From Ulva prolifera (Eukaryota; Chlorophyta; Ulvophyceae; Ulvales; Ulvaceae), in contig CM041201.1 in NCBI GenBank assembly GCA_023078555.1, positions 5,835,172 through 5,899,171 on the forward strand: 64,000 nt of DNA, written 5' to 3'. The notes under the pieces were generated by a model that saw nothing but the letters and a program-made list of their open reading frames with translations, searched no databases and was not told where the DNA came from. Position 1 is the first letter of the stretch. Every line of letters starts with the position of its first letter. A program made the position numbers and the translations under genes. Shown piece by piece: positions 1,280-55,650 of this stretch.

Positions 1280-1295
1280 GTGCAGCACTACATCT

Positions 1296-1646: not shown

Positions 1647-1787
1647 GGAGAGTCTTTTAGCACTTTTCGCGGCGGCCACGCGGCGGGGGGGCGTCGAAAG
1701 CGCGTGGCCGGGGGCGGGGCCGCGCCCGGCGGGCCGCGGCGCGCGGTCGAAACGCGGGCCTCCCGGCGGACGGGCCGACGGCACCGT

Positions 1788-4438: not shown

Positions 4439-7400
4439 ATGGCAGGCACGGGCCAGGCGGCCGATGGACGGCGGGACGAGGCCCTTGACAGGTACGCGAG
4501 CTGCTGGATGTCGTGGGGTGTACGTAAGGGCGCGGCGCGGGGCGGGGTCGCCGCGGCGCGTGCATGCGGGCCGGGATAGAGCGTGCAACGCGCATGCATA
4601 CAGCGCGCGCCAGCGCCGCTTCGGCCACCGTCGCGGTCCGCATCGGTGCATCGCGAGCAGCTCAGAAAGCTCCAGACAACGCGGAAACGTCCTGTAGACT
4701 CACAGTGACCACCGCCTGAATCGATTGTCAGCAGTCTGGGCGAAACTGGTGAAAACGCCCAGCGCAACCAGCGACGGCGTAGATGGCCTCGAACGGTGCC
4801 CAGCGTATGCCCGTCGTGCTCAGCGGCCAGAGAGCACTCCAAAAACACCGTAACGTGATGCACTGATGTTCCACTGTCTGCCAACTGCACTTGTGTCACC
4901 GTGCGGTGTTCGCGTCCGACCAGCATCACGGCGGGCGACCATACTGGCGGGATGAATCCCAACGAGAACCATGCTTTCCACGAGCTTATCGAGCTATTAG
5001 CAAACATGCAGCTCTGTCCTGTTTGGTGAACAAAACGCACGTGGACGAGGTGCTCCTTGCAGAGACTCTAAACATCGCAGCAGCTCCAATGTTGTGAGCT
5101 TCACCTGAAAAACAGTGTTGATGTGTTACTACCTATAACTTGATGCCCGTCCATACAGTACCGCGTGAACCTCCGGTCGGTCAATGTAGCATGCTACACT
5201 GCAGTGCTCCTTTACACCATGAGATCGCAGGGACATCACCACCACCAGGAATGTTCAAAAGCGATCAGAGGTGTACATGTACATGCCTATCATCAGCATG
5301 GACTGCAAGCAGGCACCATTCTACAAGATGGGAGGCTTGTGTAGGCACGTCACTGTTCGCCTGAGTCCACACCGACATGCAGTAGAGCCACGCACCGTTT
5401 TACGAGACAGCCTGCCTAATGGTCCTAAACAGTGCCTGATCTGTTGACGAGGGCGATACACTGCTTTCCAGTGGTACGGAGTCACACGTGTATGCAACAA
5501 GGTCGTCACACGTAAGCTGAATGGAAGGACAAGTGTCACATATGCTATCAGGACGTGCCAATCGCATGTGCTGCAGAGTCTGTGCCTGGCACTGTCGTGA
5601 TTGCCTGTTGACAATGCCCAGCACTATGGAGCACAAAATGCAGCAGCCAATCTGCCCAGCCAGACCGACAGAGAGCAAGCAATGATCTCGCCAGACCAGA
5701 TGATCCAACCAGCTGTGTCCGGTTTAACAATTGACGGGCAGCAGTGTCCCCGTGCATGCTTTCGCCGCTGCGGGCGGACGCCTGTGAGCGACCGGTCGTC
5801 GCGCGTGTAGGAGGCGGCGGTACGAGCTGAACCCCTCGGGCGAGGTGCTCCTGGAGGGGCTCGTGGCGTTGGGCCTCACGAAGGATCGCCTGCACAAGGC
5901 CCGCGCGTGCCTGAACCGCGCCGCGGAGGAGGCCAGTCGGCTCGGGGAGCCGTCACGCGCCGTGTGCGCGGCGCTCAACACCACCGAGAAGCCGGACTGC
6001 ACCCTCCCGGAGCCCGAGGACTGGCGTCTGTTGCTGTCGCGCTTCAACCGCACCCTGCCAGGCCTCGAGGACAGCGAGCGCGGCGCGCTGCGCTTCCTCC
6101 GCGCCCACTACGCCGTCATGGTCCTGCGCGGGGAGGACACGGACTCCCTGCTCCGTGCGGACGCCGTCGGGGACGACGCCTTCGTCGTCGACATGTTCGA
6201 GGCCGTCAAGTCGTGGCGGGCGATGACGAAGGACCGCTTCGTCGAGGTCCTCCACCTCCTGCTCTACACCAAGGTCATCGGCAGCAAGGGCTCGCTGGAC
6301 GGCATGAAGAAAGCGGTGGGCGATCTGATGAAGGCGTACTACGCGGCCGTGAACGAGGTACGTGCCGCCCGTGTGAAGCTGCGCCGCGGCGCGCCTCCTG
6401 TCCTCCGATGCGGACAGTCCTGCCCGTCGCCCGCAAGGCCGCTGTAGTGACACCGCGTGCGCGCAGGCGGTTGAAGATGCCAGTCCCTTCCAGCGCTACC
6501 AGAGCGTCGTGTCGGGCGTCGCCATGTTCATCAAGTCGTCCGCCCTCAGCGGGATCCGCAAGATCACGCCGCTGTCGGAGGGCCAGATCCGCCGCATGGT
6601 GGAGGGCATGTACGTCGGCGGCTTCGGGATGATGCAGGCGCGGGTCGTGCTCTCGCTCACCGCGATCGCCGGCGTCCGGAGCACCTTCTTCCAGTTCTGG
6701 CGCTGGGAGGACGTGCACCTCCAGAAGGTGCTGCTGCGGGACGGCGAGGCGGTGCCAGCGTCCGTGGACAACCTGTCACGGGGGGACTGCACGGTGCGCA
6801 CCTGCGGCCCTCGCTTATGTGTCAATCACACATTAGCACATTCGCTCAAGTGCAGGAAGGAGGCTTCTGTCTTGCATTCTCGTGCCTGTTGTGTAGCGCT
6901 GCCGGAGGTCTGTGTTGTTTTGTGCCTGCGTATATCCTATCGAGGCGTTTCCGTTCTATCTTGCCAGGCGCCACGCCTATAGCTATGCATTGGCAGCGAA
7001 TGTGTGATGGGATAGTGTATTATTTTGTAATAAGTGTGTGCGATTCTCCTGTGCAACCAAAGTCGCAGCATGTCCTCCTACTGTCGAGCAGCCCACTTTG
7101 TATGTGCATGACCTCGTGCTATGCATGCCTCGCCCCTCATAGGCAGATGACCACTGCCGAACATGCAGAAAGTTGTGCTGCATCATGTTGCCTTAGTCAG
7201 CACACATCGTTTGTTTTGGCACGCCAGGTCCAACGAGAGGCACGGTGGCCAATGCATGCTGTACGATACTCTGCTGAAGCCCCCAGACATGTGCAGCCAG
7301 GTATTGTCTTTGGTTCACGTCATGATCGTTCTGCCACATGACGTGCACCTCGTATCGCGACGCCACGGCCGCCGCTGCAGATCGGCTTCGCCCTCGTGAC

Positions 7401-8657
7401 CCGCCACGTCGTCACGAAGTGCCCGAATGCCTACGGCGTCAACGTGCTGGCGCTCGATCCGACGGGCCTCGCGGCCAGGCGGGGTCTGCCGCTCGTCGGC
7501 AACACGCTGGTCGAGCTCGGCCTCGCGATGGGGGTCTTCGACTGGGCTGCCGTCAACGACCTGGACTTCGGGGAGATCGTGCCGCGCAAGCCGCAGACGC
7601 GGGAGTGGTGCGCCCCCCCTGCGTGTCGCTGCTGCCCTGCTGCCATGCGCCCCCTGCCCGCGTGGCTTCCTGTGTGCCACGGGCCCCACGGCGATGTGGC
7701 CCGCACCACAGGGCTCACGGGGTGCAGGTACGTCATCTGCGCCCAGGACGACCTCCTCATGCTGCCGTTCGTCAACGTCCCGGGGAACCGCATCTCCTGG
7801 CTCGTCGCGATGGCGGGCGTGCTCGCGGACGTCGGCCCGCGCGGGCGCGGCGTCAAGGCCGGGCCGCGCGCGCTGCGCTCCTCGATGGTCCTGCGCCACG
7901 TGCTCATGCGCATAATCTCCGACCGCCCCCCCGACGAGACAACCCTGCGCCACCTGGGCACCTGGGTCCAGAAGACCGCCTGCGCGGCGATGGTCCACTA
8001 CTTCTCGAACCGCGCGGCGGCGACCACCCTCGGTGGCATGGTACGATGCCGCACCACCCGAGCCCAGCCTGCGCCGCCCTGACTTCCGCAGCGTGTGTGC
8101 GATGCCTCTGCACGGTGTGTGTGTGTGCCATGCAGCAGCACGCCGGCGTGACGACAAACCCGCAGGACATGGAGGCCGCGCGCACCGTCCAGCGCGTCTC
8201 GGCGGACGCGACCGACCCCGGCCCCCCGCCCGTCGCCGGCAACGAGGCGGAGCGCGACCTCGCGTGCTTCCTGGAGTTCCAGGCCAGCGCAGACGGGCGG
8301 CTGCACCAGGCCAGGGTGACCGCGGCCAGCAAGCGCCTCGCCGAGCTGGTCGGTGGCCACGACCCCGGCTCCGGCGGCCAGATCGCGTCCGTGTACTTGC
8401 GGCTCTCCAGGCGAGTGGCCCATGCCCCGGGCTGGTGGCTCCTCAAGAGGCCCCTCTCCGATGAGCGACTCGCCTCGCTTCCAGGTCTGTCCCCCGTTCT
8501 CGGAGTGTCGAGCCATCGTGATTCCAGCACCTGTTGCCATGATCACTAGTCGTACAGCACAGACTCCTGCCAATTGGCAGTCACAGATCTTGCAGCACAA
8601 CTATGCCGTGTATCTCACCTCTGCCAACATGAGCTCTGCTAGCTGCCATGCATGATC

Positions 8658-8690
<33 letters not shown>

Positions 8691-8722
8691 GGCACAGGCA
8701 CAGACACAGGCACAGACACAGA

Positions 8723-8757
<35 letters not shown>

Positions 8758-8821
8758 ACAGACGCAGATACAGACACAGGCACAGGCACAGGCACAGACA
8801 CAGGCACAGGCACAGACACAC

Positions 8822-8868
<47 letters not shown>

Positions 8869-8937
8869 CAGACACAGACACAGACACACACAGACAGACA
8901 GACAGACACAGTCACAGACACAGACACAGACACAGAC

Positions 8938-8982
<45 letters not shown>

Positions 8983-9066
8983 GACAGAGACAGACAGAGA
9001 CAGACACAGACACACACAGACACACACAGACACAGGCACAGACACAGTCACAGACACAGACACAGA

Positions 9067-9130
<64 letters not shown>

Positions 9131-9171
9131 CAGATGCAGATACAGACACAGGCACAGGCACAGGCACAGAC

Positions 9172-9212
<41 letters not shown>

Positions 9213-9265
9213 GACAGACAGAGACACACACAGACACAGACACAGACACAGACACAGACACATGC

Positions 9266-9296
<31 letters not shown>

Positions 9297-12200
9297 CACA
9301 CACATCCTGTAAAGTTGGCGCAGTGCGCAGGTGTGGTGAAAGACTACACTGTGGTCGTGCGGGAGGCGATTGCTGCCAAAGAAGCCTGGCTGGCCGCCGC
9401 AGAGGACGTCATGTTTGTGGACAAGCGCCGCCTGGACACGCTCAAGGCGGCGGCGACGCTGACACCGGAGCATGTGACGCTGGAGGATGTCGCTCAAGAC
9501 TATCCGTACGGCCCGTTCGACACAGACTTTCATGAGGACGAGGAGGATGCGGGGGACGGCGACGATGCCGTCGTCCTCGATGACAGCGAGGATGACGATG
9601 GCGCTGAGGAGATCGACAGGGAATTTCGCCATGCTGTGCGCGCTGCCGCGGACATCGGCGTCGTCCCCGCCGACGCCATGGAGCTTGACCTGGCGGCCGA
9701 GCTGGCGGAGCCCGATGCGCGAGACGACGGTCCGGCGACCACCGTGGACCCGGAGGTCCAGGAGGACCCAGACGCGCCGAGAGGGGCTGTCGGGCGCACC
9801 ATGGCCGCTGGCGGCAAGGTGGTGGAGATGCACATCAGCCATCAAGTTGCCCTCGCGATCATCCAGAGCCGCTGCTTTCACGTGCACAAGCTCACCATAC
9901 GCCCTGAGACCGGCAAGTCCGCGGTGCCGTACCCCGCCTTCATGCGACTGCCTCGGTCGCACGTGGAGTTCGAGGTGGACCTCATGCTCCTCTCGCATGA
10001 CGACGGCCACGCTCTCATGGAAGATCTCGAGGGGGTGCTACACGGCAAACTGCCAGTGATCCCGGCACGGGCCTGCAACCTCGACGCCACCGTCCGGAAG
10101 GCGCTGGCGGCATCGAACATGTGCCTGGTCATGGGATGTCCCGATCACGTGCACCTGGGCACCGAACACGCGCTGCTGCTGTGCCCGAAGCACCGCAAGG
10201 CGGACGTCCGTGTCCGCGGCACGGAGGAGGACATGCGGCGGTGCACCGGGTGCCACAAGCACTTGGACGTGCGGGAGTTCCGTCACGGCCAAGGCATCGA
10301 CGGCGACGGAGGGGTCTGCCGCACCTGCTCAGTGCACAAGCGCAATCGGGATGCTGGACGCGGGCAACAGCAGCCGCCGCCAGAGCACATGCCTGCTTCC
10401 CCGGCGGAGGTGGAGTCGGGCCGTGATGCCGATGGCTCCTTCATCCTCGAACGTCGCGCCGCCGAGCAGCAGGCCGCCCTGCGCCTCGACGTTCGTCCGG
10501 GTGAATCTCTCAACTCGCCGTACATCGCGTACGCCTTTTACGACGAGGCGCGGCGGGGTCACTTGCGCCGCTGCGTGCGCATCGGCTGCTCCGGAGAAGC
10601 CAAGCTCAAGGATCGCGACGGGGCCATGCTGTGCAAGCAGTGCTTCGACGTGCGTGCACAAACGCCCCTGCTGTGCCGGAACGCCCGTACCGCTTGTCTC
10701 TGCTGTATGCCGCCGTTGTCTGTCGGGGCGCCGGGTTCTTCGGCATGCGCATGTATGCATGGAGCCGCCCATCATCGCGGCGGCGACGCCTCGACCGCGA
10801 CCGAACGTCACCGGCGCATGCAGGACGTCCGCGGACTACAGTTTGTGCTTGTGGCGGTCGTGGGGCAGGACGGCAAACGGACAGGTGCGTACATGTACAC
10901 CCGCCCCTGCAGCACGTGCGGCCTGGGCGTGCCGCTGCAGATGTTCCGGCCGGGGCTCGCTTCATGCGACCGCTGCGTGGCCAAGGTTACGGCGTATCGG
11001 CGCCGCCGTGTGCCACGCGCGCCACGCGATGTCGCCCCTGCGGGCCACAAGTGGGCGACTCGCGAGACCGCCCTCGAGCTGGACTTTGACAAAGCCGACG
11101 GCCTCTGCAAGGCCACCACGTGTCCAGCGCAGGTTGCCCGCCGGGGCCGGGGCTCGGAGGCCGCGCAGCGAGCACTGCCCCTGTGCCCCATGCACATGCC
11201 GGTGTGCCTCTCGGGATGACCTCGTGTGCTGCAGAATCAGGCCCCCCTACGTGCGGTCGCATTTGTCTCGAGTTGACGAATCTGCGGTGGAGTGCACCCA
11301 GTAGAGGCATCCCGCGACGTGCGGTCTGCATGTCACATGCTGAAGCATACCGTCACGGTGGGTCTGTGTCTACAAGCACGAACCGCCGACGTACGTAGCC
11401 AGGAATATCGGTTGGACGTCAGCGGTCGGCTGAAGGACGGCACGCGTGTGTATGCGAAAGCCAGGGACCGGCTGTCCTGGTGGAGTCAGGAGGCCCACGT
11501 ACCGCCCCCAGACACCCTCACCAGATGTGTGGATGTGGACGTTCGGTGCCGTGAGCCCGTCGTGTCACTTGTACGCCCACCGAACCGTGGCGCCGTGGAT
11601 GCAGGCTTGGTTCTGCATCGACCCCAAGACCGGCCGTGTCCTTCGCTGGTGCTCCACCCACAAGCAGTGGGAGCCCATCGACGGCTTCGGGGGGTACTGG
11701 CGCACGTGTCTGGGCCGGATTCTGCCGTCGACGAGCGCAGAGGCGCTGGAAGCGGCGAGGATTGCAGCTGCAGTCGCGGCAGCGGAGCATGCCGCTGACG
11801 CCATGCATGACGTCGAGGAGGATGCTGTGGAGTGGAACGTCGAGTGGGGCCGACAGTCGGAGGTGGTGGATGGCCAGGACGCGGTCGCGCAGCTCAGGAG
11901 CCACCTCGGCAACGAGGTCATCAACTGGGCCGCAGACGTGCTCGGACGAGACCTCTCTGCGATCGAAGAAGAGGACCACTTCGTGCAGGCGGCGGTGGAG
12001 AAGCTGTACGAAGATGGACAGGCCACGGAACAGATCACGGCGACGGGCATTCCGGTGCCGGGCCCGCCGGCACCCACGACGTGCGCCATCTGCGCACAAT
12101 ACACGTGCCCGGCCGGCTTCACCGGGCAGTCGGTGTGCCTGCCGTGCGCGGCGCGCGGTCGGGGCGCGGGAGGGCTGTCGCTGCTTGACGTCAACCACGC

Positions 12201-15200
12201 CCTCGTATCCGGGCTGCTGTACGGAAAGGGTACGCTCCCGTCGACCGTGATGCCCTGGTCTTTCTCTCTCAGCTCGGGTGTATGCGGACCGTACGCGAAT
12301 ACACGCATCACCGACCTGTGTTCATCCCCCGCGGCCCCCATCTCGCAGCCCTCCAGTCGCGCCGCGTCATGGCACGCGATCACCGACGATCGGGCGCAGC
12401 AGTGATGCTCAACGATTCCATGCAGGCCGGATGACGACGAAGCGCGCCGGGTATGTCATCCCGGAGCTCTCGATCATGCACGGAGTCACGGCGGAACATG
12501 CTCGCGCATTCGCCGAGCTGCGCAGCCGCAGACAGATCGTCGTCATCGGCACCGGCTCGGGCACCGAAGCCGACAGGCGCATGCGTCAGCTCAGCAGCCA
12601 GGCCAGCAAGCGGCGTCGGCGGGATGCGGGCGGGCAGCCCAAGCACAAGGCACGGAAGAAACGCGGGCCCACGCGTGACGGATCCGAAGGCTCTCCGATG
12701 GACGGTGCGCTTCCGCCTTGACGGTCAGTTGGTCCTCTTGGCGAACAGTTGCATGATACATGCAACTGAACGTCGTCCATCCACGGTGTGCGACACAACT
12801 GAACGTGGGCACACACCATCTCTGCACGCGAGCGTCTTGGCTGCATCGCATTGTCGTCGTGCCACATGCCATGCATGCCCGCCAGACGACCCGCACTCTG
12901 ACCACTCCACCCCGTACGGATGCAGAGGACGAGCCGCCGCGTGTCGCGCTCCCGCCGGCAAACGGAGTCATGCTGGCGGTCGCCCGTGCCTTCCAAGCAC
13001 ACGGTCGGGAGTGGCTCACCGACCAGGCGCGGGCGCGCAATGCCATGGACGTCGTGTGCGGGTCACTGCCCGCATTCGGGCGGGGCCACGGCCGCTGCAA
13101 CTTCGGCTCGCTGGAGTCCATCCAAGCCATGGCCGCGACTGGCACTGTCCCCTTGAGGGTCCTCAAGCTTCCGAACGGAAAATTCCAACAGGCACGACCC
13201 AGCATCGCCGATTTCACCGCCAATCCCGTTACGCCACTCCCAGAAGCAGTTGAGTTGAAACGCCACGAGCGCGTGTGTACGCCTTTGCGCGTCATGTCCG
13301 CTTGGATGCAACAGCGACGTTGGTGTACCGCATGATGCCCGCTGTCTGTGGCCAATGAACGAGAGATCACGCTCTCGGGATCCCCGAACGGCCCCACCCC
13401 GGTGGCGTCGTCGCTGTGCTTGTACAATCCCCCGGTGGATCGGTCTCCGACCCGTGCCGACGTAGCACGTGCGGAGTGCGTGTGTCGGCCCCGGTGAAGC
13501 GACACTGTGGTGGTGCAGGTTGTATGCGCACGCATGCACGGCATGCGTGGCTCGAAGGAAGGTGCCTCGGAGGACATCGCCGGCTGGACATGGTTCGGCG
13601 GGGTCCGGCTCGGGCGCGACCATGGCACCGTTTTCGGGACAGTCGTCATGAAGAACAAGAGCTCGGGACGCAGGCTCGCGAGTGGCCGTGACACGCAGGA
13701 GCACACAACCGCCGTCCAAGTGGCGCGTGACGCAATCGCGTTGCTTCTGCCGCGGCTGTCGGCGGCCTTCCCGTCCTCCCCGACGAGCCCCGTTCACGTG
13801 GTGACTCTTGCGATCCTCCACCAGTGCCTCGACAGCGTCTCGCCGCTGTCGGTGGTGGAGCCGACGCAGCCGACGGTGCTGATCCCTGTGCACCTCTACG
13901 CAGCCAGCCTGGCCCACCGGGAGCACTTCGGTGCAGACGTGTCCACCGCGGTCGGCTATTGCACGGCCCGCATGGCGTGTGCCCTCATGGCGGCGAGGGA
14001 GAGCGACGACTTGCCGGAGGCGATGTGGAAGTGTGTGCGCGGCGCCGCCATCGCGACCATGACGGCGGCCGGCGCCGATCCACCAGACCATGCGCGATAC
14101 GTGGCCGGTGCCGTGGAGGCCTGCAAGAACATCAGGCGCAGCCTCCCACCTGCGCTGCGGCTGAACCACGCCGGGGACCTCGCCGCGGGATTCTTCATGA
14201 CGGCCGTCACGGACTCGGACAGGATGACGGCCGAGCGCCTACGGGCGCACGTCGCGGGCGGCGTTGCTCCGGGCGTCGGCATCACGCCGTCGCGCCTGTT
14301 CCCGGACGAGCGCACTAGTACTGGTCCTGCCGCCCATGGCGAACGCCCCGCCGCTGGACCGAGCGGTGATGGCGCGGGAGCGTCGACGCGGTTCGCACTC
14401 GCGACTGGGGACGGCGGGGCAGTCCCGGCCCATCGGCCAGCATGCCTGGCTCCTCCAGCAGCGCGTGCACTCGACTCGGCAGTCCCCGCGGCAGCCGGCC
14501 GCGCCCCCATTGCGGCTGCGATTACAGGCCACGCCTCCCAACCGCCAGGCGAGGCCCATCCCGGAGCAGCGCGCCGTGGCGCAGCAGCGCAGACCTCCGG
14601 TGCGGCGGTCTCGGAGATGGCTGCTCCTGCGGCCGAGGGCGCCCTCGGCGCGGAGGTGCAGGCCTCCCCTCAGGCGGCACAGCCCCTCGGAGACGCGGGC
14701 CAAGGGCCCCCCGAGGAGGCGCAGCCCTGCAGTGCTGCACAGGCCCTACCTGTGGTGGTCAAGCAGGAGGGGGCCGGGGCTGCACCTCGCGGCGTGGCTG
14801 GACGCAGCTACGACGGGCCGCCGATCATCATATCGTCCAGTGATGATTCTGGCGATGATCTGGAAGTCGTTTTGGCCGCCCCTCCAGACGTGCCTCCTGC
14901 TCGGCACCCCGTCGGCGGCCAGCCTGTGGCCGCTGCAGCGCACGCCCCGCCTCTGCCGTTCATGGGTGTCCAGGAGCACGTCCCCGTCGTCGCAGAGGTC
15001 GCAGTGGGCGGCGCACCGGCGCACGGCGCTGCACCGGCCGCCCAAGTGGGGCAGCCCGCTGCCGTTCTCCCTGGCGCACAGCCGGCACCACCGCAGGGCA
15101 GGGGAGCGCTCAACCTGGCCGCCGCCGTCATGGGTGTCCAAGGGCCCGCCGACGCCGCTGTCCACCCGCCGGAAGCCGCGCCCGTCGAGCCTGCAGCGGC

Positions 15201-15312
15201 GGTGCAAACTGCTCCGCCTCCCGCCGGGGGGCAGCCTGCGGCTGCCGCGCTGGACGCCCAGCCCGCGGCACCGGCGGCCGGACATCATTTTAATAAGCAC
15301 TTAGGAGGTTGA
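4439..15312 (+). CDS. Copy B: giant tyrosine-recombinase / zinc-module protein gene, 3' end cut by an insertion
   Basis: Exons rebuilt by comparison with copy C: 4439-4491, 5811-6357, 6467-6751, 7381-7607, 7728-8040, 8136-8484, 9331-10649, 10824-11201, 11605-12229, 12426-12704, 12926-13191, 13519 to about 15290. Every junction is in phase, giving about 2,145 codons. The ATG at 4439 was chosen because its short exon ends in phase 2, as does the copy C first exon, and leads into RYELNPSGE. Residues about 180-475 look like a tyrosine recombinase: box I Arg about 271 (AGVRSTFF), Lys about 308 (TKCPN), Arg about 427 (MVLR), Tyr about 462 (MVHYF). An acidic linker and Cys/His zinc modules follow, then a Lys/Arg-rich NLS-like exon, a helical domain and a Pro/Ala tail with [13 protein letters not shown]. 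Codons are much more GC-rich than in C. The frame runs into the TIR element at 15291, and the helicase part seen in C is absent. The intron after 13191 would use a GC donor. Function is inferred from motifs only. Confidence 0.72.
4492..5810 (+). other. Large first intron of copy B
   Basis: 1,319 bases between the short first exon (donor GTACGC) and the acceptor GTGTAG before the second exon. No coding similarity is visible in it. The matching intron in copy C is 1,241 bases (16782-18022), but the two introns do not look alike in sequence. Confidence 0.5.
8485..9330 (+). repeat. Intron of copy B filled by a (CAGA)n-type microsatellite (8657-9304)
   Basis: About 645 bases of CAGA with interspersed CAGG and CACA words lie inside the intron between the exon ending LASLPG and the exon starting VVKDY. 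Because the unit is four bases with no stop codon in most frames, it creates long open frames on both strands (over 800 codons on the plus strand). These are artefacts. The acceptor is CAGTGCGCAG at 9330. The same intron exists in copy A, filled with another tandem repeat, and is missing from copy C. Confidence 0.9.
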
Positions 15313-16057
15313 TTTTTGCGTCGAAAACGCGGTGCGGAGGAGGTCGTGGAACGTGTACCGACGAGGCGGGTCGAAGCCCGGCCCCAGCGAGGCGAGGGAG
15401 GCTCGGGAACGGCGCCTGGATGCACGAGACAGGCAAACTGGCACGCGGAGGCCCTTTTTGGACAGGGCTGCGCGTGTTAGGGGTGCCGAAGGCAGCGTGG
15501 GGCGCGCGGCGAGGGGACAGCGGGCGGGACGTGGGTGGCGGAGGTCCCAGGCGCGCGGTGCGAAGGCGAGCGGGCGAACGCGGGGCACAGAGGGTCGGAG
15601 AGACACGGATGTTTGCGCTGGCCGGTGCTGAGCGGCGTGGAAGACGGCGTGGAGGGATGCAGGAGGTGGACGAGGTCGTGGCGAGCTGTACGCCGTGCGG
15701 TGAGCGCCGAGGCGCAGCCGGCACCGTGAGGGCAACAGGAAGATGCACAGGTCGTTGGAAGAGACACGATCGAGCGCATGTGGCGTCGCAGCGCTGGCGT
15801 CCGTGCGTGCAGGCGTCGCGGTGCGTGCCGTGTGTAGACACGAGCGCAGGCCTGGTCGCACAAGCGGCGTGGCAGGATAGGAGCCTGCGAGCAGCAGGAA
15901 GACGCGGAGGTCGTTGGAAGAGACATGATCGAGCACATGGTGTCGCAGCGCTGGCCTGGTCGCACACCGCGACGTGAGACCGTAGCGGCAAGCGGCGTGG
16001 CCAGAGCCTGCTTGGTCTGCTCGAGGACAGAAAAAATGACCTCCCAAGTGCTAATTA
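15291..16057. mobile_element. 767-bp MITE-like element with 27-bp imperfect terminal inverted repeats
   Basis: The left end TAATAAGCACTTAGGAGG (15291-15317 in full) is matched by the reverse complement of 16031-16057, at 22 of 27 positions. The inside is GC-rich with no convincing gene. It contains a diverged tandem duplication of about 159 bases (GTCGTTGGAAGAGACA at 15751 and 15910). It sits exactly where the copy B reading frame stops matching copy C, so it is either the insertion that ended copy B or lies at the deletion border. No clean target-site duplication could be fixed (TTA/TAA is possible), so the superfamily is unassigned. Confidence 0.6.
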
Positions 16058-16746: not shown

Positions 16747-19700
16747 ATGGCGACTGCAGAGGCCGAGGAGTTGTCCAAGCGGTGCGTTCCGTGGCAAGGC
16801 GCCCAGCCTGCAGGCATGGTCGCGGCTGGTTGCGTAAGCGCATGCATAAGGGGCGCGCGTCGGTACGAAAGTGTCGCTGTCGGTCAGTGGCGAGATGGCG
16901 ACGATGCAGGCGCTACACAAGGCAACGTAGGCATAGGCTGCATTCGTGTTTGGCACACCAGCATCATCCGGGCGAACGGGAAGATGTTTATCGTGCGACC
17001 TAGAGCGTGCCGCTCGTCCGCCGATGGCATGGCATGCGCGCGCGTTGGTGCCAAACTTGCCCCGTGTGGGCGCGGCTGTAGTGTGATCGTGTGTGTCTCC
17101 ATGATGGTTCGGATGAGATCCTTCTGCGGTATTTGTCTTTTCCCGTGCACTGTCGCCGCGGTTTCTGGTCCGGTATACATACAAGTCTCGTCTCTCGACG
17201 CAGGTCATCTTGTTTCACAAAAGAGTGAACGGGAGAAGACAAACGCCAACACCGAATGTAATTCGAATCAACAACCTTCTCTTATCTCGCAGACAGCTGC
17301 GGTGCATTGCTATGCCAAGCATGTATCTGCGCAATGCATGTACACACGTCTGCGGCATCACAAATCCACCCACACACAGATGCAAACTTGTCTCCACCAT
17401 GTTCTTTGCCGATGGATGGATGGGATTCATCCGACTGGTCACAAAAGAGCCCGACCCCTACTCAGTGAGCGTCGGCCTGTACAGCTACACCAAACATGTT
17501 GACCACTCTCCTACCCCCCGTGTCCGCTACTACATTCGTCTGTTACTGCATTGCATCGTGCACAGGCACCTGCCTTTTTGATGCGTGAGGCATGTACAAG
17601 TGCTAGTATGGGTCTGGTTGGGCCTGGTAAGTCAAGCAGGGCAGTCATGCATGTAACGATCCAGGCGCTCCAGAATGGTCGGTGGGGCACCAACCATTCG
17701 GGCAGTCATGCATGTGACAATCCAGGCGCTTCAGAATGGTCGGTGGAGCACCAACCATTCGGGCAGTCATGCATGTGACGACTCATGCGTGGCGTGGCGA
17801 CTAAGAATGACTGGTAAGGGTCTGGTCTGGCAGCACACGGGTTTTTTGTTACCGTATCTTGCTGCTGGGTGTGTATTCCCCAGCCCCAGTTACCCGCACT
17901 CTGCCCTCGCACCAGCTGCAGCCTCCCGCCCCTGACCGGTCCGCTCGCGTACTGAATCGGCCCCGTGCGTCGGTGTGATCTAGCCGCGTCGGCGCATGTG
18001 CCAGAGACGGACTCTTGTGCAGGGAGCGCTACGAGCTCAACCCCTCGGGCGAGGCGCTGATTGAGGAGCTGGAACGGAAGGGCATCACGCTGCCGCGCAT
18101 CCAACAGGCCCGCGCTTGCATCAATGCGGCTGCGGTCCGAGCTGGCAACCGCGGGGAGCGGTCGCGTGCTGTCTTTGCAGCCGTCAGTGGCGTTTCCTTG
18201 CCGACGTTCTCTCTACCTCAGCTCGATGACTGGCGCCTGCTGATGAGCCACCATTACCGAACGTTGCCGGGGCTCGAGAATGCGGAGCGCAACGTGCTGC
18301 GGTTTGCGCGGGCCCACTATGCTGTGCTGAGCTCGCGCGCTCTGGAGACTGAACACCTGCTCAGGCCTGACACCATGCAGGTGTGTCACTGTTTGGGGGC
18401 TCGACGGCGCTTCCAGGTAACTGTTGCGTGCATTTGTGATGCCAGTGTTTGTACTCGCGGAGCTGCCAGTCCACCGCGAATTGTCCTTGTACACTCGCAG
18501 GTCAAACATACGTACCTATGAGCTGACACGGTGTCATGGCCATGGTGTGCAGCTGGACATGTTCAAGGTGATTGAGTCGTGGCGCGTGATGCCGAAGGAT
18601 GTCTTCACCGCGACGCTGCACGTGCTGCTATATACAAAGCAGATCGGCAGTGACAAGGTGCTGGACGCGTACGAGCACACGATCAGCTGCTTGTGCAGAG
18701 ATTACTATGCGGCCAAGGATGAGGTGCGTGTGTCCATCAGCTCTGATAGCAGTTCTTGATGTAGTTGCTATGACTGCTACAGTGTGAGGTGTGTTATGTA
18801 AGTGCCCGTCGCTTGTGGTGAGGAGATCGTGGCATGTGTAGGTCCTCGGGTGCGGCGCTGTATACATTTTTTAAACAGGCGAGTGCCGCAGTGCAGGTCG
18901 TGGAGTTTCCGAGTCCGTTCAAACGTTTCAAGGCGCTGGTGAGGAGCGTCCGTATGTACATCAAGGCTTCGCCGCTCGGAGGTGTGCGCAAGATCACGCC
19001 CCTGACGCAAGGCCAGATCATACGCACTGTGGAGTCGATGTACGTCGGGGGCTTTGGCATGATGCAAGTGCGCAGCGTCCAATCCTGCCCATGCCGATGC
19101 AGATGCTTGCTTGATCAACCATCCTTCCCATGCCGATGCAGATGCTGGTCTCGAGAGGTTTGTTTGGCGCATATGACTTGGCCTCACTTTTGCAGGCGCG
19201 CGTTGTGTTTGCGCTAACTGCGCTTGCTGGCCTGCGCACGACATTTTTCCAGTATTGGCGCTGGCGGGACGTGGAGCTCGTGAAAGTCCCTATGCTGCGA
19301 GGACAGGTGAGGGAGGCGATGTCAGAAAAGCTAGGATTCGTGCAGGTCAGGACGCGCAGTCCTTGTTCAGGTCAGGTCAAGGCAGCCAGCATCTCGTACC
19401 TGCTGCGCACAGAGGTAGAACCGAGAGATGCTGAGGAGAATGCTAATACCGTGAAACAGTAAAGATAATGGTTACAGATCTCAGTGTGCACATGCTTATA
19501 TGCACACTGAACACACAAGGTTACGGCGGGAAACCCTCACAGGATCTCTCTCACTACATCGAGACAATCTCGGCTGGCGGCTTACCCCTGCACTGGATCC
19601 GCGGATCGTCCGTGCATGGGTGCACCTGTCACCACACTGCTGCCCGCAGGCTCATGCATTGTGACAGGCGACTGAGGAGGTGGTGCACGATGACGACACG

Positions 19701-22700
19701 CTGGTGAGCACTGATGTCCTAGTTGAAGCCGTTGCAGAATAGATGTGTGAACATCCATCGGGCTGCCTGTCCCAGTCTGTATATCATGTGACTGCCAGAT
19801 GAGAGTCGGTGTCAGTATTTGTTTTCTCCCGTTCACTCTTTTGTAATCTCATGTGACTGCCAGCTAAAGGTGTCTGGCTGTACCTACACATGGCTGTGCA
19901 GAAGTCTGTTCGTCCACACTGTGTGACTCTGGCGATGTCCCCCACGTATTGCCTCACCCGTACAAGCATTATTTCGCATCGTTCCGCCACAGCTGTGTCG
20001 CTTGTGGATCGCTGCTGCTGATGCTGCTGCAGCGCTTAATGTGCACTGCACTTATTGGTGCTGTGCAGATTGGCTTTGCCTTTGTGAGCCACCACGAGGT
20101 CAACAAATGCCCCAATTCGTATGGTGTGCCGGTACTGGCACTGGACCCGACGGGCCAGCCAGTCTCGCCGTCCATGCCGGTCATCGGCAGCCTGCTTGTG
20201 CAATTGGGGCTGGCCATGGGGGTGTACGACGCGGACCAGATCCAGAAGTTGCAGTACAACCAGCGCCTTTGCCCGAAGGAACATGCACAGGACTGGTGTG
20301 GTCCTCGGTCAGTGTTGTTGTCAGGGATCACTACGCTGGTCAACCTCACTTGTGTGCCCATCCATTGTCAACGTGACATCCCACCTGACCCCTTGCCCAA
20401 TCCTGAAATAGAGCATCTCTATGATATCGGCATTTCGGTTCAGCACATATAGCAGATGCATTTTTACACTGTCTTCTAACATGCAGCTCGGTGTTGCAGG
20501 TATGTCATCTGCACGCAGCATGACATGCTGTTCTTGCCCTACATCAATGTTCCGGGACCTCGGATCTCGTGGCTGGTCGCCGTGTGTGGACTTCTCGCAG
20601 AGCCTGAAGGCGGAAACGCCGAGCAGGAGAAGCCTACTGGCAAGGGTGTTCGCATGGGGCCGAGGGCGCTTCGGTCCTCCATGGTTCTGCGCATGGTCTT
20701 GTCAAGGATCGTGTCAGATCGAGCCCCCGATGAGGTTCTGATGCGCCACATTGGCACGTGGGTTCAGAATGCGACAGCCGCGGCAATGGTGCACTACTTC
20801 TCAAGCCGTGGCGCGGCGTCCACGCTGGCTGGCATGGTGTGCATCAACGCCTTGTTTTTTCTGGCACGCAATGCGCGTGCCACTGATGGTGCTGCAGACC
20901 TACATGTAGGTCTCAGTACCCAGACATGCGGTGGGGGCCATGGCGGGCGGCAGTGTTCCAATGCTGCATGATGTGGTGTCATCTGGGCCTCGTGGGGACA
21001 TTGTCCTCTCATGTCCAGGGTGCTGATGTCCGTGCCATGGTTGCGTTTGCGAGGTTGCACTGCATATGTACACGTAGCACGTATGCGGCTGTTTGGTGTC
21101 AGTGCTCACAGTATTGCATGGCTCCTTGCGAATATTGGTGGCATTGGTAACAGTCATAATCCCCATGTGCAGGCACAGGTCAACATCACGGGGGACGCAC
21201 AGGGTATGGAGCGCGCGCGCACAATTGCACGCTTTGGTGGAGATGCGGGCGGATCAGGCCTGTTGGCTACGGCGCGCGACCAGCCCGAGCGCGAACTGTT
21301 CTTGTTCTTTGCCTTCCAGAATTCCAGGGAAGGCGCAGCACAACAGGCGATCCTCACCGAGAAGTCGAAACGCCTCGCTGACTACGTGGGTGGTCACCAA
21401 GCCGGCGATGGCACCCAGATCGCGACGGTGTACCACCGTATCATGCGCAAGGTGGCACCGTATCCGGGCAAATGGCTGCTCCAGAGGCCACTCTCCGGTC
21501 ATCGGCTGGCTCAGTTGCCACAGGTGGCGCGGGAACTCACCCAGGCAGTCGTGGCTGCCAATGGTGCCAAGGACAAGTGGCTGTGCAGCACGCTGCAAGT
21601 CATCGGCGTTGACAAGGTCGGGCTGCGCACGGAGCAAGGGAAGGCGGCGTTGGCAGCGCCGTGTGCGACTGTTGAAGATGTGGAGATCGACTTCCCGCAC
21701 GGCCCCTTCGGCGAGCATGAGGACATGGATGGGGACGACGCCGTTGATGATGGTGACGTCGAGATGGAGGGCTGCGATGACAGCCATGCCGACGTGTCAC
21801 AGCACCCCGACGAAATCGCCGATGCTGAGCTTCAGGAGGTAATGGGGGGTGTCGCTGAGCTCGCGGCCCTGGGGACTGCTACCGAAGAGACGGTGTATGA
21901 TGCTGTGGAGGAGGAGCTCAGGCGTGAGGCGGGCCTCCGATGCGCAACGGAGCAGCCGTCGGTTGCCACTGACAGCGGAGTCGCTGTGGCTGAAGCGGAT
22001 CCAGGCATGTCGGCGGAGGTGCCCGCGCCTGCTGGCGAGGCTGCGTCCGGGGAGCCAGAAAGTGCCACGGCGCATTTTACCACAGCGTCAGGAGAGACGA
22101 TGTACCTGCACCTGTCGCACCAAGCGTCCCTGGGTGTGCTGTCAACTCGCCAGTATCAGGTGCACTTGCTGACGATCAACCCAGACACCGGGGAGTCCGT
22201 TATCCCTTATCCGCCTGGCATGCGTGTGCCCAAGGGGGACCCCGTGTTTGAGACGGACTACCTCACGAAATGGGCACACAGCAGCGGTGAGCAGCTGATG
22301 CAGGAAGTGCGGGCTGTGCTGCATGGGTCACTCCCGATGGTGCCGGCGCGTTTCGCCAACATGTCCCTAGCTGTTCGGCGTGCGCTCACGGCATCGAAAA
22401 TGTGCATCGTGCAAGGCTGCCCGTCGTATGCCACCACTGAGACGACCAACCACAGTCTGCACCTGTGCGAATTACACCAGGGCGACGACATCCGCGTGAT
22501 GAACACCGAAGAGGATGTCCGTTTGTGCACTGCCTGCCACGGGCTGCGTGCTGTGGAGGAATTCCGTGAGGGCCAAGGCAGCGAGACCACTGGCGGAGTT
22601 TGCCACAGGTGCCTTGTCATTCGCAGAAACACGGCCATCACCAAGAAGAACGCAAGAAAGGGCACGTCAGTTCCAACACTCCCCGTCCCCGAGCACAAGC

Positions 22701-25700
22701 CCCCGTCTGCGACAGAGATCGAGAATGGCATGGATTGCACCCAGGCGTATATCTTGGAGCGACGTGCAGCGGCACAATGTGCTGCCCCCATCGGCACGCG
22801 CCCCGGTGAGACGCTGTCGGACCCGATGTTGGTGCTCGCGACGTATGCTGTTGAGCGGCGGGGCCACGAGCACCAGTGTGTGCGGGTGGGCTGTATCAAT
22901 GACAGCAAGTCCTCGAAGCCCGCGACCCTGTGTCGAGCTTGCTGCAAGGTGCGCGGCGACTGAACTTGTGTATACACCCCGGTGCATCTGGTTTTCATTG
23001 TGAGCCCTGTCACAGTTGTCAGAATTCTGGCGTGTGCTTTTGTGGATGCATAAATGCCTCTCTCGAGCCCCGGTGTATCCTCTGATGCGTGTGCATGTCG
23101 CAGAGTGTGCGGGGGCGGCATTACGCCCTCGTCGCCGTTGTGGACGTTGATGGACGTCCAACCGGGGAATACATGTATGTGCGATACTGCAGCGGTTGCC
23201 GGCGGGGGCTTCCGCTGCACATGTTCAGGGATGGCCTGGCTCAGTGCAATCGCTGCGTCGACGGTGACGCCGAGTATCGCCGGCGAGCGGCACAGGAGTC
23301 GCTGCCGGGGCGACCCCCGGACGTCAACACGGATGATCTGGAGTATTCCACCCCAGAAAAGGCTCTGATCATGGACTACGCCTACGGCCCCGGACTGTGC
23401 AAGGCGAAGAACTGCCGAGAGGAGGTTGCTCGAATCGGAAGTGGCCCACAGAATACAACGCGCGCAGCGCCGATGTGTGGGCCTCACCTCAGGGTAGCGT
23501 CTCCTCACTGGACCACCACATGTCGCCAGGCGTGTCTTACAGAAATGCTACAGCCACAGGGGGTACTTGTGATCTAACACTGTGTTGTACGGAAGCTGTT
23601 CCATTGTTTACACGCCAATCACCTGCAGGCTTTCTATGTCAAAGTGGAGAAGACCGGGCTTCTGCAGCGCTGGTGCACGGGCCACAAGATGTGGGAGCAT
23701 CCGGACGTCTTTGGGGGCTTGGTGCGTGCGTGTCGCCACCGTTTTGTTACCAGGTCACTACCTGTGACAGGGGCTGCTGGACAGCAAGGCGCTGCCGGCG
23801 AGCAAGGGGTTGACAGTGCTCATGATGCCGATGTTGCCGGTCCCATGCCTGCAGTCGCAACGCCCGTCGCCGGGCCGCCAGCGCTCGCCGAGTCTGTCTC
23901 GGGAGTTGCCATCGAGGGCACAGCGAGTGACAGCCCGGTGGCTGGTGTATCGAGCTCTGGGACACTCGCGCATTGCGCGGCTCCCGTATCTGCTGTCAAT
24001 ACGCTCATGCATGAGACCATTCCTGTTGCCACGCCCACCACAGCTGAAGCTGGTGGTTCCACAGAGGAGTGGCAGGTGGCATGGGGGTGCCAGACTGCGA
24101 TTCTCGGTGGATGTACTGCGGCCAAACAAGTCCAGGCGTACCTCGGAAGACAGGGGGCGGCCGCTTTTGCGAGGAGCATCCTCAACCGGCCTGATGTCTG
24201 CGATGAGGCCATGGGGGCCGCGGTGGACGATGCTGTGAAGAAGCTATACACCACACTCGCCGCGGAAGGCGGCCCCACCACACCAGCGATTGGGTTTCCG
24301 GTTGCGCCTGTGCGCGCACCAACGACATGTGCACGCTGTAGCAAGCCTACATCGGCTGACGCGTTTGTCGGCAAGTCAATGTGCCTGTGGTGCGCTGCGG
24401 GAGGAGCTGAGAGCCTCTCACTGGTGGACGTTGGCAGTGCGCTCGAGTCTGGGATGTTGTATGGCAAAGGTGCAGTCCATCATCCATGTGTGTTCGGTTG
24501 TGACTGTGGGCGTTGCAGCATCAGCTGTGGTGTTGCAGTGATGTGCGTTTACAATGTGGAGAGACCTGGGCCATGGCGATGGCCAAGCAGCAGTGCAATG
24601 TAGTGATGCAGCTGTTGTTTGTGCCAAGGGTTTTGGTGGACACTCTGACTGGTGCACCTTGCAGGGCGGAGAGTCAGGAGGCAAGCTGTCCGCACGGACC
24701 CGAAGCTATCCGCGATTGGCGGGATCATAGTGGCGCATGCCCAGGTGGCTAAGAGCCTCAAGAAGAGGAGGTCCGTCAGTGTTGCTGGCGTCGCAGGCAA
24801 GCCTGCGAAGAAGCGTCAACGACACACCAGCAGCCAGAGCGCCCGACTCAGACACCAGCGGAAGGTTGTGCAGGATGGCTTGGCCCTGACGCGGTGTGCA
24901 GACCAGGAGGACCACGTATGTGCAGGTGAGCCATTTGATTGCTCATTCCTCGCTGATTGACCCTATGTTGCATGCGCACGTATTGGCTGGTAATGTATCA
25001 TTGGCAGCATCGTCCCTTGTACAGTCTGTTGCCCTGTCCCAATGCATTTCTGGAAGGGCGCATAGGGCTTTCTGTGGTCGGACTCGCTGTCACTTTGATC
25101 CTGCAGTTCATCAGTGCACGTTTCATCTTGGTACCCGACGACATCGACCACGAGCTATGCAGAGAGCGATGATGAGGATTCGGAGCCACCGGCACCGGCA
25201 GATGCAGACTTGACCATGCTGGCCGCTGCCCGTGCGGTGTATGCGCATGGCTTGGAGTGGTTGGCGAACACCGACTGTACTCACGCCGCCATGGAGACCG
25301 TCGAGGAGCTCCTCCCTGCCTTCGCACGCCGTTTCGGAACGAACAACTTTGCGTCCTTCGCTGTGGTCGATGCGGCCGGTCCGCAGCCAATCCTGCGAGC
25401 CCGGCAGAGCGACAAAGGTGGATGGCAACAGGTTCGCTTCTTACACAATGCTGTAAAGCACTGCCCGGAGAATTTGTGAACTGTTCGCGGTAGCACGCCG
25501 AGGGGCCAGAAGTGCGAAATAGTGCTGTGCTAGCTGTGGCTGCCAGTTATGGGACACTCGAGCTCTGACGGGGTGATCCTGTACGCGAAGCTGTATACCG
25601 GCAGCTGAGGTCCTCGTTGCCGCGGACCAGATCATCAGGGCCTGAACTGATGAGGTTTACGTTGAGATGCAGGTGATTTGTGCTCGCCCCCCCGGGCTGC

Positions 25701-27810
25701 GAGGTCGCAAGACGCATGATTCGGACACCGTCACTGACAGCACGTGGTTTGGGGGCTATGGTATCCGTATGAAGGACAACGAGCTTTGCGGTGACGTGCT
25801 GGTGAGGGACAAGAAGCCTCGGCGCATTGCAACAGGACTGCCTGGTCAGGACCCGGACCAGGACGCGGCGGTGCAAGTGGCGCGCGACACGTTTGCGTTG
25901 CTGCTGGATCGCCTGCACAATGTGCTCGGACCTGTGCCAATGAAGCCGGTGCATGTGCTGTCGCTGGCCTTCCTCGAAAACTGCAAGATCAAGGTTCCAG
26001 CGATCGAAGACCGCCATCAGACGACGTTGCTGATGACTGCTCACCTCTACACTGCGGTAATCGCCCGCCACAGGCAAAAATATGTGGAGAGCGGCGATGC
26101 TGCGCCTGATAGGAGCAAGGTTGCCCATGTTATCGGTTACTGCACAGCGCGCCTCGCTTGTGGCCTGCGAGAGGCCAGCAAGCCCTCCCCGCTCCCGGCG
26201 TCAGTCTGGGAGACTGTCCGTGGGGCTGCAGTTGCCACGATGACCGCATTCGAGTCACACGGCCAAGCCCTTTATGCAGCGGGAGCAAAGCTGTACTGCG
26301 GGCGTGCAAACGCAGCGTTCCCTGAAGAGGTGTTGCTGACGCGTCACAAAGCTATCTTCTCGGGCCTGGTGATGGCAGGGATTGTGGGTGGCGGGCCCAA
26401 CACAGCAGAAGCGCTGCGCGAATTTGTTGCAGGTGACGCAGCACCCGGCACCGGGGTTGTGCCGACGCGATCCTACGCAGATGACAGCGTCGCCCATGCA
26501 GACGACAGCGTTGCAATGTATGCAGTGCGGTCTGATTCACGTGGCTGCGTTGGAGTGGCCTGCGGCGGCGGCACTTCCGATGCAGTCGGCTCCTGTGCAG
26601 CTGGATCGTCACAGGCCATGCTCGCTGGTAGTGGCTGTGGTGGTCTGCAGGCACCCTGGTCTGACACCACTGCAATTACAGCAGTTGTTGATCATCCAGC
26701 GATTCGTGTCACAGGTGTGGCGGACGCGCCACCCGTTGAGAAGGTGAAGGCGAAGACTGAGCCTGTTGCCACGTCTTGCCTTGAAGGAGTCATCACCGTG
26801 TCTTCGGATGAGGAGGCCCCGCCAACTGCAGAACAGGGAGCGCCCGCAGCTGCACCGACGGCAGAGCCGGCAGGTGATGCTGCGCAGCTGGCTGCTGTCG
26901 ATCTCGGTGCAGCACTGCAGCGCCTGGAACCTAGCCCACGGTCTGCTCACGAGTCCTTGCCGAATGACCAAGTGCCGTCACTGAGTGATGTGGAGGCATC
27001 GCAGCACCACATTAACATTGACACGTACAAGTACGATCTGACGGAGTTGGCAGCAGATGTCCGCGCCGCGATCAAGGCTGTCACGCCTGCGGTATGTTCT
27101 GGTCGTGCCCATGTTGTTGTGGCAGTGCAGGTGGTGGCAGTCGGCATGTGCGTGCATTTTCTGGAGTCGGGGAGTTTTGTGCAGTCTGCTGTTGTGTATT
27201 TTCTTTTATGAGAAGCTGCATGCAGGAAGTCTTTGCTGTGTTGGCAGACGGCGCATACGATGCCGTGATTCTGCTCGGCCCCGGCGGCTGTGGCAAAACG
27301 GTGCTGGGTGAGAATGTACACGGGCGAGCGGTCATAACATTCGGCGAAGAGGGGGCGGCACGGTGTGCGCAAAGTGGCAGGCACGCAGCGAATGCAAGGT
27401 GCATGACGTTGGCACGCCGTTTCAGGTATGGTTCGTATATGCAGCGAGCGCAGATATACCTCAACCTGCAGGCTGCCGATGAGGTCGCCCAGGTTCAGAT
27501 GCTCATCATAGAGGAGGCGACGTCTGTGCCGAATCACATGTTGCAGCAGCACATCGGGGCGCGGACGGCGGCGCGGAAATCCGTTAACCTTGCACGTACG
27601 CGCCTCCAGCAAGACGCCCCTTATGAGATCACCACGGGTCTGGACGGGCTCAAGCTGATGGTCAGCGGGGACCATCTTTAGCAGATCGTGTCCACTGGGA
27701 GCGTCGGACGGGTGATTGCGTCGGGTGAAGAAGCGGGCGTTGCTGTGCCCGCGCCGCCAGCCAAGCAGGGCAAGTGTATCTGGGACCTGCAGATTCTGCA
27801 AGGCGCCAAG
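16747..27810 (+). CDS. Copy C: giant protein with tyrosine-recombinase-like, zinc-module and SF1 helicase parts
   Basis: Exons: 16747-16781, 18023-18380, 18553-18723, 18879-19067, 19196-19306, 20069-20295, 20500-20836, 21173-22948, 23104-23493, 23629-24469, 24665-24925, 25163-25431, 25673-27091, 27226-27810. All join in phase, giving about 2,322 codons with one TAG at 27679. Residues about 130-475 are recombinase-like: Arg 265 (AGLRTTFF), Lys 301 (NKCPN), Arg 428 (MVLR), His 447/Trp 451 (RHIGTW), Tyr 463 (MVHYF). The His of the usual HxxR is Met. Then come an acidic stretch and zinc modules CIVQGC...CELH, CTAC...CHRC, CVRVGC...CRAC, CSGC...CNRC, CKAKNC...CGPH and CARC...CLWC. A basic NLS-like exon, a helical domain and a tail with VITVSSDEE follow. 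The last exon has Walker A GPGGCGKT, a Walker-B-like LIIEEATS and a motif-III-like SGDHL, with the TAG directly after it. The domain set suggests DNA integration or rearrangement, but this is inference. The true 3' end is unresolved. Confidence 0.75.
17641..17783 (+). repeat. Two-and-a-bit copies of a 61-bp tandem repeat in the first intron of copy C
   Basis: GGCAGTCATGCATGT recurs at about 17640, 17701 and 17762. Between the starts lie near-identical segments holding CCAGGCGCTYCAGAATGGTC and CACCAACCATTC. Confidence 0.85.
19320..19666 (-). mobile_element. Solo LTR (347 bp) in an intron of copy C, TSD GGCGA
   Basis: It starts TGTCAGAAAAGC and ends TTGTGACA, with TG...CA termini, and is flanked by GGCGA at 19315-19319 and 19667-19671. 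It closely matches 54642-54986 and, more distantly and inverted, 53765-54112, which is followed by a primer-binding site. That fixes the sense strand of this copy as minus. Insertion was a few bases inside the donor of the intron that begins at 19307, so the donor GTGAGG is intact. Short open frames across it are not genes. Confidence 0.9.
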
Positions 27811-28197
27811 GTGCTTGTGATTGTCGCGCATGGTAACCATCGACTGCTCGGCATGATGCACAAGCTACATTGCACTGGGTGCGGTTCTCTTGGTGGCATC
27901 GGGTGCCGGTTGATGTTGCCGTGCCAACAGTATCGGTCTGGGTCCTTCACTCGAATGAATGGCATGACGCGGCTGCATGCACTGCGGTCTGAAGAGCGGG
28001 CGTCTGTGGTAGTGTGTCGCCTTTGTGTAGCCATATCGTATGGTTTTTGGCAATGTCACGTGTGCCCCCGTCGTGTTGGTCACATACCTCTTTGGGCAGT
28101 GCTGCCGCGGTCACATGCCATGCTACATCAGCGGCATGTTGGATGTTGTTGACGCGGTTGTCTAGTAGTGCAGTGCTTGATGTGCTTTGCCATGCAG

Positions 28198-32435: not shown

Positions 32436-32439
32436 AAAC

Positions 32440-36442: not shown

Positions 36443-36448
36443 CGCTGA

Positions 36449-55647: not shown

Positions 55648-55650
55648 TAC

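Follow-up and report, generated by a model that had tools for sequence, protein, structure and literature searches.

A 64,000-nucleotide stretch of the Ulva prolifera genome (C6:5835172-5899171, hereafter the window) contains copies of what is likely a large family of DNA mobile elements, each carrying one giant intron-containing gene, integrating at the flanks of tRNA genes and accreting into arrays. The searched genome comprises 88.9 Mb in 44 contigs, and C1 to C10 are used below as contig labels. The predicted protein begins with a tyrosine-recombinase-like (YR-like) domain and ends with a PIF1-like helicase; between the two lie, in order, an acidic linker, SBP-like zinc modules, a basic exon and an unknown domain that is conserved and carries a SUMO-interaction-like tail. 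A sequence-only reading of this DNA had proposed a new class of YR-helicase mobile element. Its mobility and architecture are largely borne out by at least 27 YR-exon places on six contigs, by near-identical copies with differing neighbours and by 5' ends lying in other copies or behind tRNA genes, whereas the YR domain is argued from conserved motifs. Taken together, the comparisons indicate that the family is real and probably recently mobile.

The gene model was built on the C10 copy, which has 17 exons and reads without a stop through 2,544 residues up to a 3' deletion, with GT donors and AG acceptors throughout (mostly TGCAG), and was then mapped on other copies. The copy at C1:2756208-2768448 is intact, with 17 exons, no stop and 2,723 amino acids. 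The model also maps in order on window copy C, on window copy B to exon 14, on a C9 copy to exon 15 and on a C8 copy. The C9 copy has one stop in its exon 8. The C8 copy is more diverged; its exons 1 and 13 have no convincing match, and the scores of exons 12, 16 and 17 are low. In B, C9 and C8, exon 4 is fused to exon 5, and in C exon 8 is fused to exon 9. Translated comparison of the window halves gives collinear exons in a single order (A, B and C), and this similarity, together with the exon-by-exon mapping, identifies the three as real copies of the predicted gene. The similarity goes beyond chance, because other copies repeat the exon order, the phase and the splice signals, and the ratio of nonsynonymous to synonymous divergence (dN/dS) is about 0.25-0.33. 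By the Nei-Gojobori method, C1 against C gives dS 1.12, dN 0.28 and dN/dS ~0.25 (16 exons, 2,443 codons), and B against C9 gives dS 0.62, dN 0.20 and dN/dS ~0.33 (13 exons, 1,877 codons); these values indicate purifying selection on the predicted exons. In comparisons with C8 the synonymous sites are near saturation, with pN/pS 0.81.

The C1 and C10 copies form a mosaic, in which exons 2-8 differ at 24-53% of synonymous sites and exons 9-15 and 17 at 0-6% (C10 exon 16 was left out). Across C1:2753001-2771000 and C10:1190001-1207000 (L047, L048, L051, L052) the YR half is diverged and the zinc-helicase half nearly identical, as if the halves had been swapped.

Window copy C reads as one gene of 16 exons and 2,767 codons (16747-29581, + strand) with one in-frame TAG at 27679. 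The sequence-only reading had given it 14 exons and about 2,320 codons and had ended the family region at 27810; both figures are replaced here, the helicase part of C continuing to 29581. The position of the TAG is open in other family copies, and an alternative genetic code with TAG as Gln was rejected for copy C, since other copies are open there without it. C exons 1-7 were placed by phase and splice sites, plus a six-copy alignment. Copy B is otherwise the same gene and ends before the helicase; it has no exons 15-17 because the C element begins at 15285. Its intron at about 8500-9300 is a microsatellite, and at 8643-9312 this stays open in the downstream frame, which accounts for a long false open reading frame (ORF) in B. 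The earlier proposal also named remnants A and D with the same exon order. Copy A holds; it is 97.5% identical to the C1 copy over 1,639 bp, and the junction sequence places its cut at about 1640, at the 5' end of B. Remnant D, a P-loop ORF at 31719-32432, was rejected as a family helicase, its matches to the family helicases reaching only E 0.004-0.013. We also note that copy C carries a 347-bp insertion, absent from three other near-identical C-type copies, which may supply or alter the exon 5 donor, because it overlaps the last 26 bases of that exon as modelled.

The model, drawn from genomic sequence, describes one giant gene for a predicted protein of ~2,700 residues. Against it stands the absence of the helicase exon from many copies that have the YR exon (27 YR places against 13 helicase places). 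This would suit two adjacent genes of one element, one for the YR-zinc part and one for the helicase, in place of a fused protein. We consider that arrangement very unlikely, as the frame and splice signals run through all 17 C1 exons without a stop, and through C save for one codon, and the exon order is kept in the C8 copy, whose YR part is 35% identical.

The usual catalytic set of tyrosine recombinases is R, K, HxxR, H/W and Y. In the family, R (GLR...RWxDV), K, RxxR, W (GxW) and Y, which we take to be the catalytic residues, are invariant and in order in six copies, the farthest of which is 35% identical. Comparison of exons 4-5 by hhalign sets box I, weakly, in register with phage and bacterial YRs (E 0.033; 1 of 60 column shuffles as good). 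Because of the motif order and the tRNA targeting described below, the N-terminal domain is likely a tyrosine recombinase. For the recombinase-like domain of the sequence-only reading, the ordered residues in six copies and, weakly, box I are retained, and no significant whole-domain match was obtained in Pfam, in the PDB or with a prokaryotic YR profile.

Several results count against this identification. RxxR stands in place of the usual HxxR; hhalign of the whole domain with 11 YRs of bacteria and phages was not significant; the same comparison for exon 7, where the proposed RxxR, W and Y lie, stayed at chance level, 24 of 60 shuffles scoring as well, and for exon 6, 45 of 60 shuffles were as good or better. 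Two AlphaFold models of partial YR pieces had a mean pLDDT of 37.5 and 33.3, too low for use. Pfam gave no match for the YR region in six copies, the PDB sequence search with the domain returned nothing significant, and a PF00589 search of the host genome returned no candidate. If the domain were not a tyrosine recombinase, another enzyme would move the element, or it would be moved in trans. This is unlikely in view of the invariant residues in order in six copies and the register of box I; moreover, no reverse transcriptase, RNase H, DDE or HUH domain was matched by Pfam in any exon scanned, and landing behind tRNA genes is typical of YR integrases.

The C-terminal part of the predicted protein is a PIF1-like SF1 (superfamily 1) helicase, as the earlier reading had it, with support at the level of the family. 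Three family copies, on C1, C2 and C10, attain the PF05970 cut-off, the last of them only with its neighbours, and the best PDB match of the helicase part is PIF1 (E 7e-4). Four copies keep Walker A, an acidic Walker B and the GDxL(Q) motif; no later helicase motifs were recognised in the family helicase part.

The SBP family is known from green plants, and SBP-domain genes in this genome score 60-62 bits. The module in exon 9 of the family matches SBP below the cut-off in four of five copies and reaches the cut-off with neighbours in four genomic copies, and the exon 9 profile has five matches among PDB sequences, all of them SBP proteins, with E values between 0.0047 and 3.3. Another match to SBP, likewise below the cut-off (E 0.003), falls across the junction of exons 10 and 11. 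A third cysteine set lies between the two SBP matches, and a C4 ribbon follows. The zinc part is therefore best read as three SBP-type double modules and a C4 ribbon, with family-level support for two modules and the cysteine pattern for the third; the five or six Cys/His modules counted earlier give way to this arrangement, the zinc part itself standing. Exons 11-13 of copy C (24665-27091) had no Pfam match.

All counts of places are lower bounds. The YR exon occurs at at least 27 places (27 candidates) on six contigs (C1, C2, C6, C8, C9 and C10), the helicase exon at at least 13 places (16 candidates), including C5, downstream of the YR exon on the same strand, and exon 9 at at least 30 places (35 candidates; query P0005), including C3 and C5. 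The arrays are one-stranded: in each of the five clusters that, by our grouping, contain at least two YR exons, the copies share their orientation (24 of 24 copies). Some copies are 98.4-99.6% identical over kilobases, yet have different neighbours, and several copies are broken. A length-filtered search for full-length homologues found none among 7,981 scored candidates. The YR profile found no homologue in viral contigs and one prokaryote collection, and its three matches, P0001-P0003, are apparently near-identical to copies in this genome. Of three matches to the exon 9 profile, P0004 resembles window copy C, and P0005 and P0006 are relatives at 42-51%; their best matches in this genome are 83% over 212 residues and 46%, respectively, neither close in full. 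The family therefore seems to exist elsewhere.

The sequence-only reading had suggested inspection of the insertion boundaries. Twenty-six element 5' ends were collected: an A-type pattern gave 8 and a C-type pattern 10, comparison added 5 (C10, one on C2, window B, C6:5767 kb and C9), and 3 came from tRNA genes near arrays. The flanks were read for all 26. The heptamer AGCACTT follows in 25. Twelve ends lie inside other family members, many in their exons, and six immediately follow a tRNA-Ala or tRNA-Ile gene and share its strand; of these six, four are clear and two probable. The B-type 5' end recurs with other flanks in the C6:5767 kb copy and behind tRNA-Ala on C1, and an empty site for the junction of window C is seen in two copies (L043, L044). 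In all six tRNA cases there are 5 nt from the tRNA 3' base to TCG (five) or TGT (one), TCG having been taken as the first element base only after the sequences had been seen. Three of these sites were sought because tRNA genes lay near arrays, so that the unbiased count is 3/23. The chance of hitting the 10-bp zone behind a tRNA gene is ~7e-6 per insertion. This value is approximate, as it is based on an incomplete list of 60 tRNA genes (63 of 1,780 candidates scored). A third tRNA-Ile(AAT) gene was found, and it is empty. The remaining eight 5' ends have other or undetermined flanks, one of them lying in sequence shared downstream of three A copies. The overall pattern looks like tRNA-targeted integration with tandem accretion.

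At two 5' ends, C1:2772216 and C6:5649244 (L072, L073), a long G run is followed by two tandem copies of the terminal motif. At C4:1140426 (L068), an A-type 5' end lies on a contig in which no YR exon was found, as a truncated or solo copy.

These boundaries bear on the possibility of a host gene family, a domesticated recombinase-helicase grown by tandem or segmental duplication with its tRNA neighbours carried along. Such a history would fit the one-strand arrays, the purifying selection, the identity of the window junction at 15285 with that at C6:5763029, and the C10/C1 mosaics, which point to recombination between copies. Nevertheless, the DNA upstream of the two tRNA-Ile genes is unrelated, the ends of the A, B and C types follow different tRNA genes, and the family contains broken copies and the 12 ends inside other members, so that we regard a host family as quite unlikely. 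The domesticated role in programmed rearrangement that had been offered earlier also becomes less likely, because the copies disrupt each other.

The 3' side fits the mobile-element interpretation less well, and the following observations weigh against it. Comparison of copies did not reveal an element 3' end. The stretches on C1 and C10, where the far end itself is unmapped, were found to contain no second tRNA 3' end, even when 6 mismatches were allowed. Had C simply inserted into B, the helicase part of B would be expected after C, and it is not in the window; nor were the missing pieces of A and the outer C-type copy found beyond 31163 in the window. In addition, 5' tips away from tRNA genes differ by as much as about 15 nt. 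The displaced 3' parts and the variable tips would be explained by a step that is one-ended or error-prone, or by deletions that arose later within the arrays. A candidate 3' end at about 31163, common to two copies, was rejected and no 3' terminus is assigned, because the tail at 30590-31163 is a dispersed repeat. This tail is part of a repeat found at 14 places on six contigs and adjoins the 3' side of two family copies. By eye, the stretch at ~30207-30600 recurs inverted before the A-type 5' end at C1:2772 kb (L072).

Under the mobile-element interpretation, the YR domain would insert the element, probably in circular form, next to the 3' end of tRNA genes; DNA binding would be aided by the SBP-like modules, and the helicase would help to replicate or open the donor, raising the copy number. 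Copies arriving later would then integrate at or within those already present, and arrays of a single direction would build up next to the tRNA gene. More tentatively, the family may represent a new class of nuclear element that is the eukaryotic counterpart of tRNA-integrating islands: one giant protein with YR, SBP-like and PIF1-type parts lands a fixed step behind tRNA-Ala and tRNA-Ile genes and replicates, perhaps one-endedly in a Helitron-like, YR-initiated manner, into one-strand arrays with intact 5' ends. Eukaryotic YR DNA transposons are few and their mechanism is obscure. Uniting a YR-like domain with a PIF1-like helicase in a single protein would connect the integrase strategy with the rolling-circle one, and the junctions suggest that a nuclear element uses tRNA 3' flanks, the classic sites of bacterial and archaeal islands, with near base precision while accreting in arrays. 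These ideas can be tested directly, since the family offers an intact copy, copies that are nearly identical, empty sites and a fixed junction. Derivation from a virus (a polinton-like virus or giant-virus relic) with a YR integrase is highly improbable: polinton-like viruses can carry YR and SF1 helicase genes (PMC4642659), but the family has one multi-intron gene rather than several viral genes, and its YR profile has no match in viral contigs.

Table 1. Family features in the window, and element 5' ends and tRNA genes across the genome
Feature	Position	Strand	Details
Copy A remnant	1..1640	+	End of exon 6, exons 7 and 8, start of next intron
B element 5' end	1641..1665	+	Core TTTAGCACTT at 1656
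Minisatellite, B 5' region	1711..2864	+	Units ~153 bp; repeat families D2, D4, D8; present in other B copies
Putative B exon 1	4439..4491	+	ATG and open frame to GT donor, right phase; without confirmation by comparison
B exons 2-7, YR-like domain	5812..8040	+	2/3 5812-6357; 4/5 6470-6811; 6 7381-7605; 7 about 7728-8040
B exons 8-12	8142..12653	+	Exon 8; acidic linker and SBP-type modules (exon 9 about 9313-10655); 10-11; basic exon 12
B exons 13 and 14	12886..15284	+	Cut at 15284; uninterrupted form in L043, L044
C element 5' end	15285..15330	+	TCATTTTAATAAGCACTTAGGAGG...; ten C-type ends genome-wide with different flanks
C exons 1-7, YR-like domain	16747..20836	+	16747-16781, 18023-18380, 18553-18723, 18897-19067, 19196-19345, 20069-20295, 20500-20836
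Insertion, intron after C exon 5	19320..19666	+	347 bp; same repeat as 54642-54986
C exons 8-10	21173..24469	+	Fused 8/9 21173-22948; 23104-23493; 23629-24469; first SBP-type module about 22403-22580
C exons 11-13	24665..27091	+	24665-24925 (basic); 25163-25431; 25673-27091 (conserved unknown domain, SUMO-interaction-like tail)
C exons 14-16, PIF1-like helicase part	27226..29581	+	27226-27878; 28198-28557; 28696-29581; in-frame TAG 27679
5' ends in B exons	Window C and C6:5763029; C6:5818970		First two in B exon 14 (one junction, duplicated); third in B exon 7
5' ends in A-type copies	C2:10847804; C6:5652594; window B		In A exon 4; in A-type 5' region; in A
5' ends in C-type copies	C6:5831051; C6:5767 kb; one C9 end		In helicase exon of C-type copy; in C; in C-type sequence
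5' ends in C9-type sequence	Three C9 ends		
tRNA-Ile(AAT)	C1:2754240	Same as element	A type, clear
tRNA-Ile(AAT)	C10:1190230	Same as element	A type, clear
tRNA-Ala(TGC)	C6:5632775	Same as element	C type, clear
tRNA-Ala(AGC)	C1:12148155	Same as element	B type, clear
tRNA-Ala(AGC)	C6:5625795	Same	Probable; distant member without heptamer, 73% similar to B 5' region further in
tRNA-Ala(TGC)	C2:10551198	Same	Probable; C-type-like tip, then C9-type end about 40 nt on

Elsewhere in the window, several ORFs were recognised by eye. Those at 32089-33678, right after the P-loop ORF, are gypsy-type-integrase-like, and Copia-like polyprotein ORFs lie at 35891-41261 (-) and 55039-57528 (+), with long inverted repeats at 40837-41165 and 55225-55553. 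The repeat at 54642-54986, shared with the insertion in copy C, is near a Copia-like ORF. ORFs at 47136-49838 (-) resemble exons of an IspG-type (isoprenoid) enzyme and likely belong to a host gene.

Among the open-access papers listed in literature searches, no title or abstract opening contained a YR-helicase fusion or YR-SBP combination; an earlier description is possible in subscription papers and repeat databases, which lay outside this scope. A search of open-access full texts for "SBP domain" together with "tyrosine recombinase" returned no paper. Cryptons, reported from animals, fungi and stramenopiles, have a YR and 4-6 bp terminal direct repeats (PMC3212892), and the present family resembles them as a DNA element with a YR, or here a YR-like domain, as the only recognisable mobility enzyme and without long terminal repeats. 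The word "helicase" is absent from the main text of that paper, and, as far as that text goes, no helicase, SBP modules or tRNA targeting are reported for Cryptons (PMC3212892), whereas helicase exons are part of the gene model here. Polinton-like viruses demonstrate that a YR and an SF1 helicase can share one element integrated in algal genomes, but there, as these accounts describe them, they are separate viral genes accompanied by capsids (PMC4642659, PMC12220804). The cryptophyte study records no tRNA genes within 1 kb of its insertions (PMC12220804). Dada elements are likewise eukaryotic DNA transposons targeting tRNA genes; in contrast, they are described with a DDE transposase, 6-7 bp target duplications and insertion inside the RNA gene (PMC8869645). 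Arrays of the long interspersed element Zepp share nested insertion into their own kind and clustering on green algal chromosomes, but Zepp is a retroelement whose arrays, by the description given, keep mostly 3' ends, whereas 5' ends are kept in the present family (PMC8226300). The family differs from DIRS/Ngaro elements in having no reverse transcriptase or RNase H match by Pfam in the exons scanned, and from Starships in having no DUF3435-type captain match by Pfam in the YR region of six copies. Helitrons combine a HUH nuclease and a PIF1-like helicase in one protein and insert between A and T. The fusion of a nuclease-type enzyme to a PIF1-like helicase is shared, but the HUH (Rep) nuclease is absent here by Pfam in the exons scanned, and insertion is not between A and T. 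Bacterial and archaeal tRNA-integrating islands and integrative and conjugative elements use a YR, land at tRNA 3' ends and accrete in tandem in one direction. The present family differs in its nuclear setting, in its one giant spliced gene and in that no duplicated tRNA 3' end was seen on the other side in the C1 and C10 stretches, and it resembles them in its YR-like enzyme, its landing at a fixed place behind tRNA genes and its one-direction accretion.

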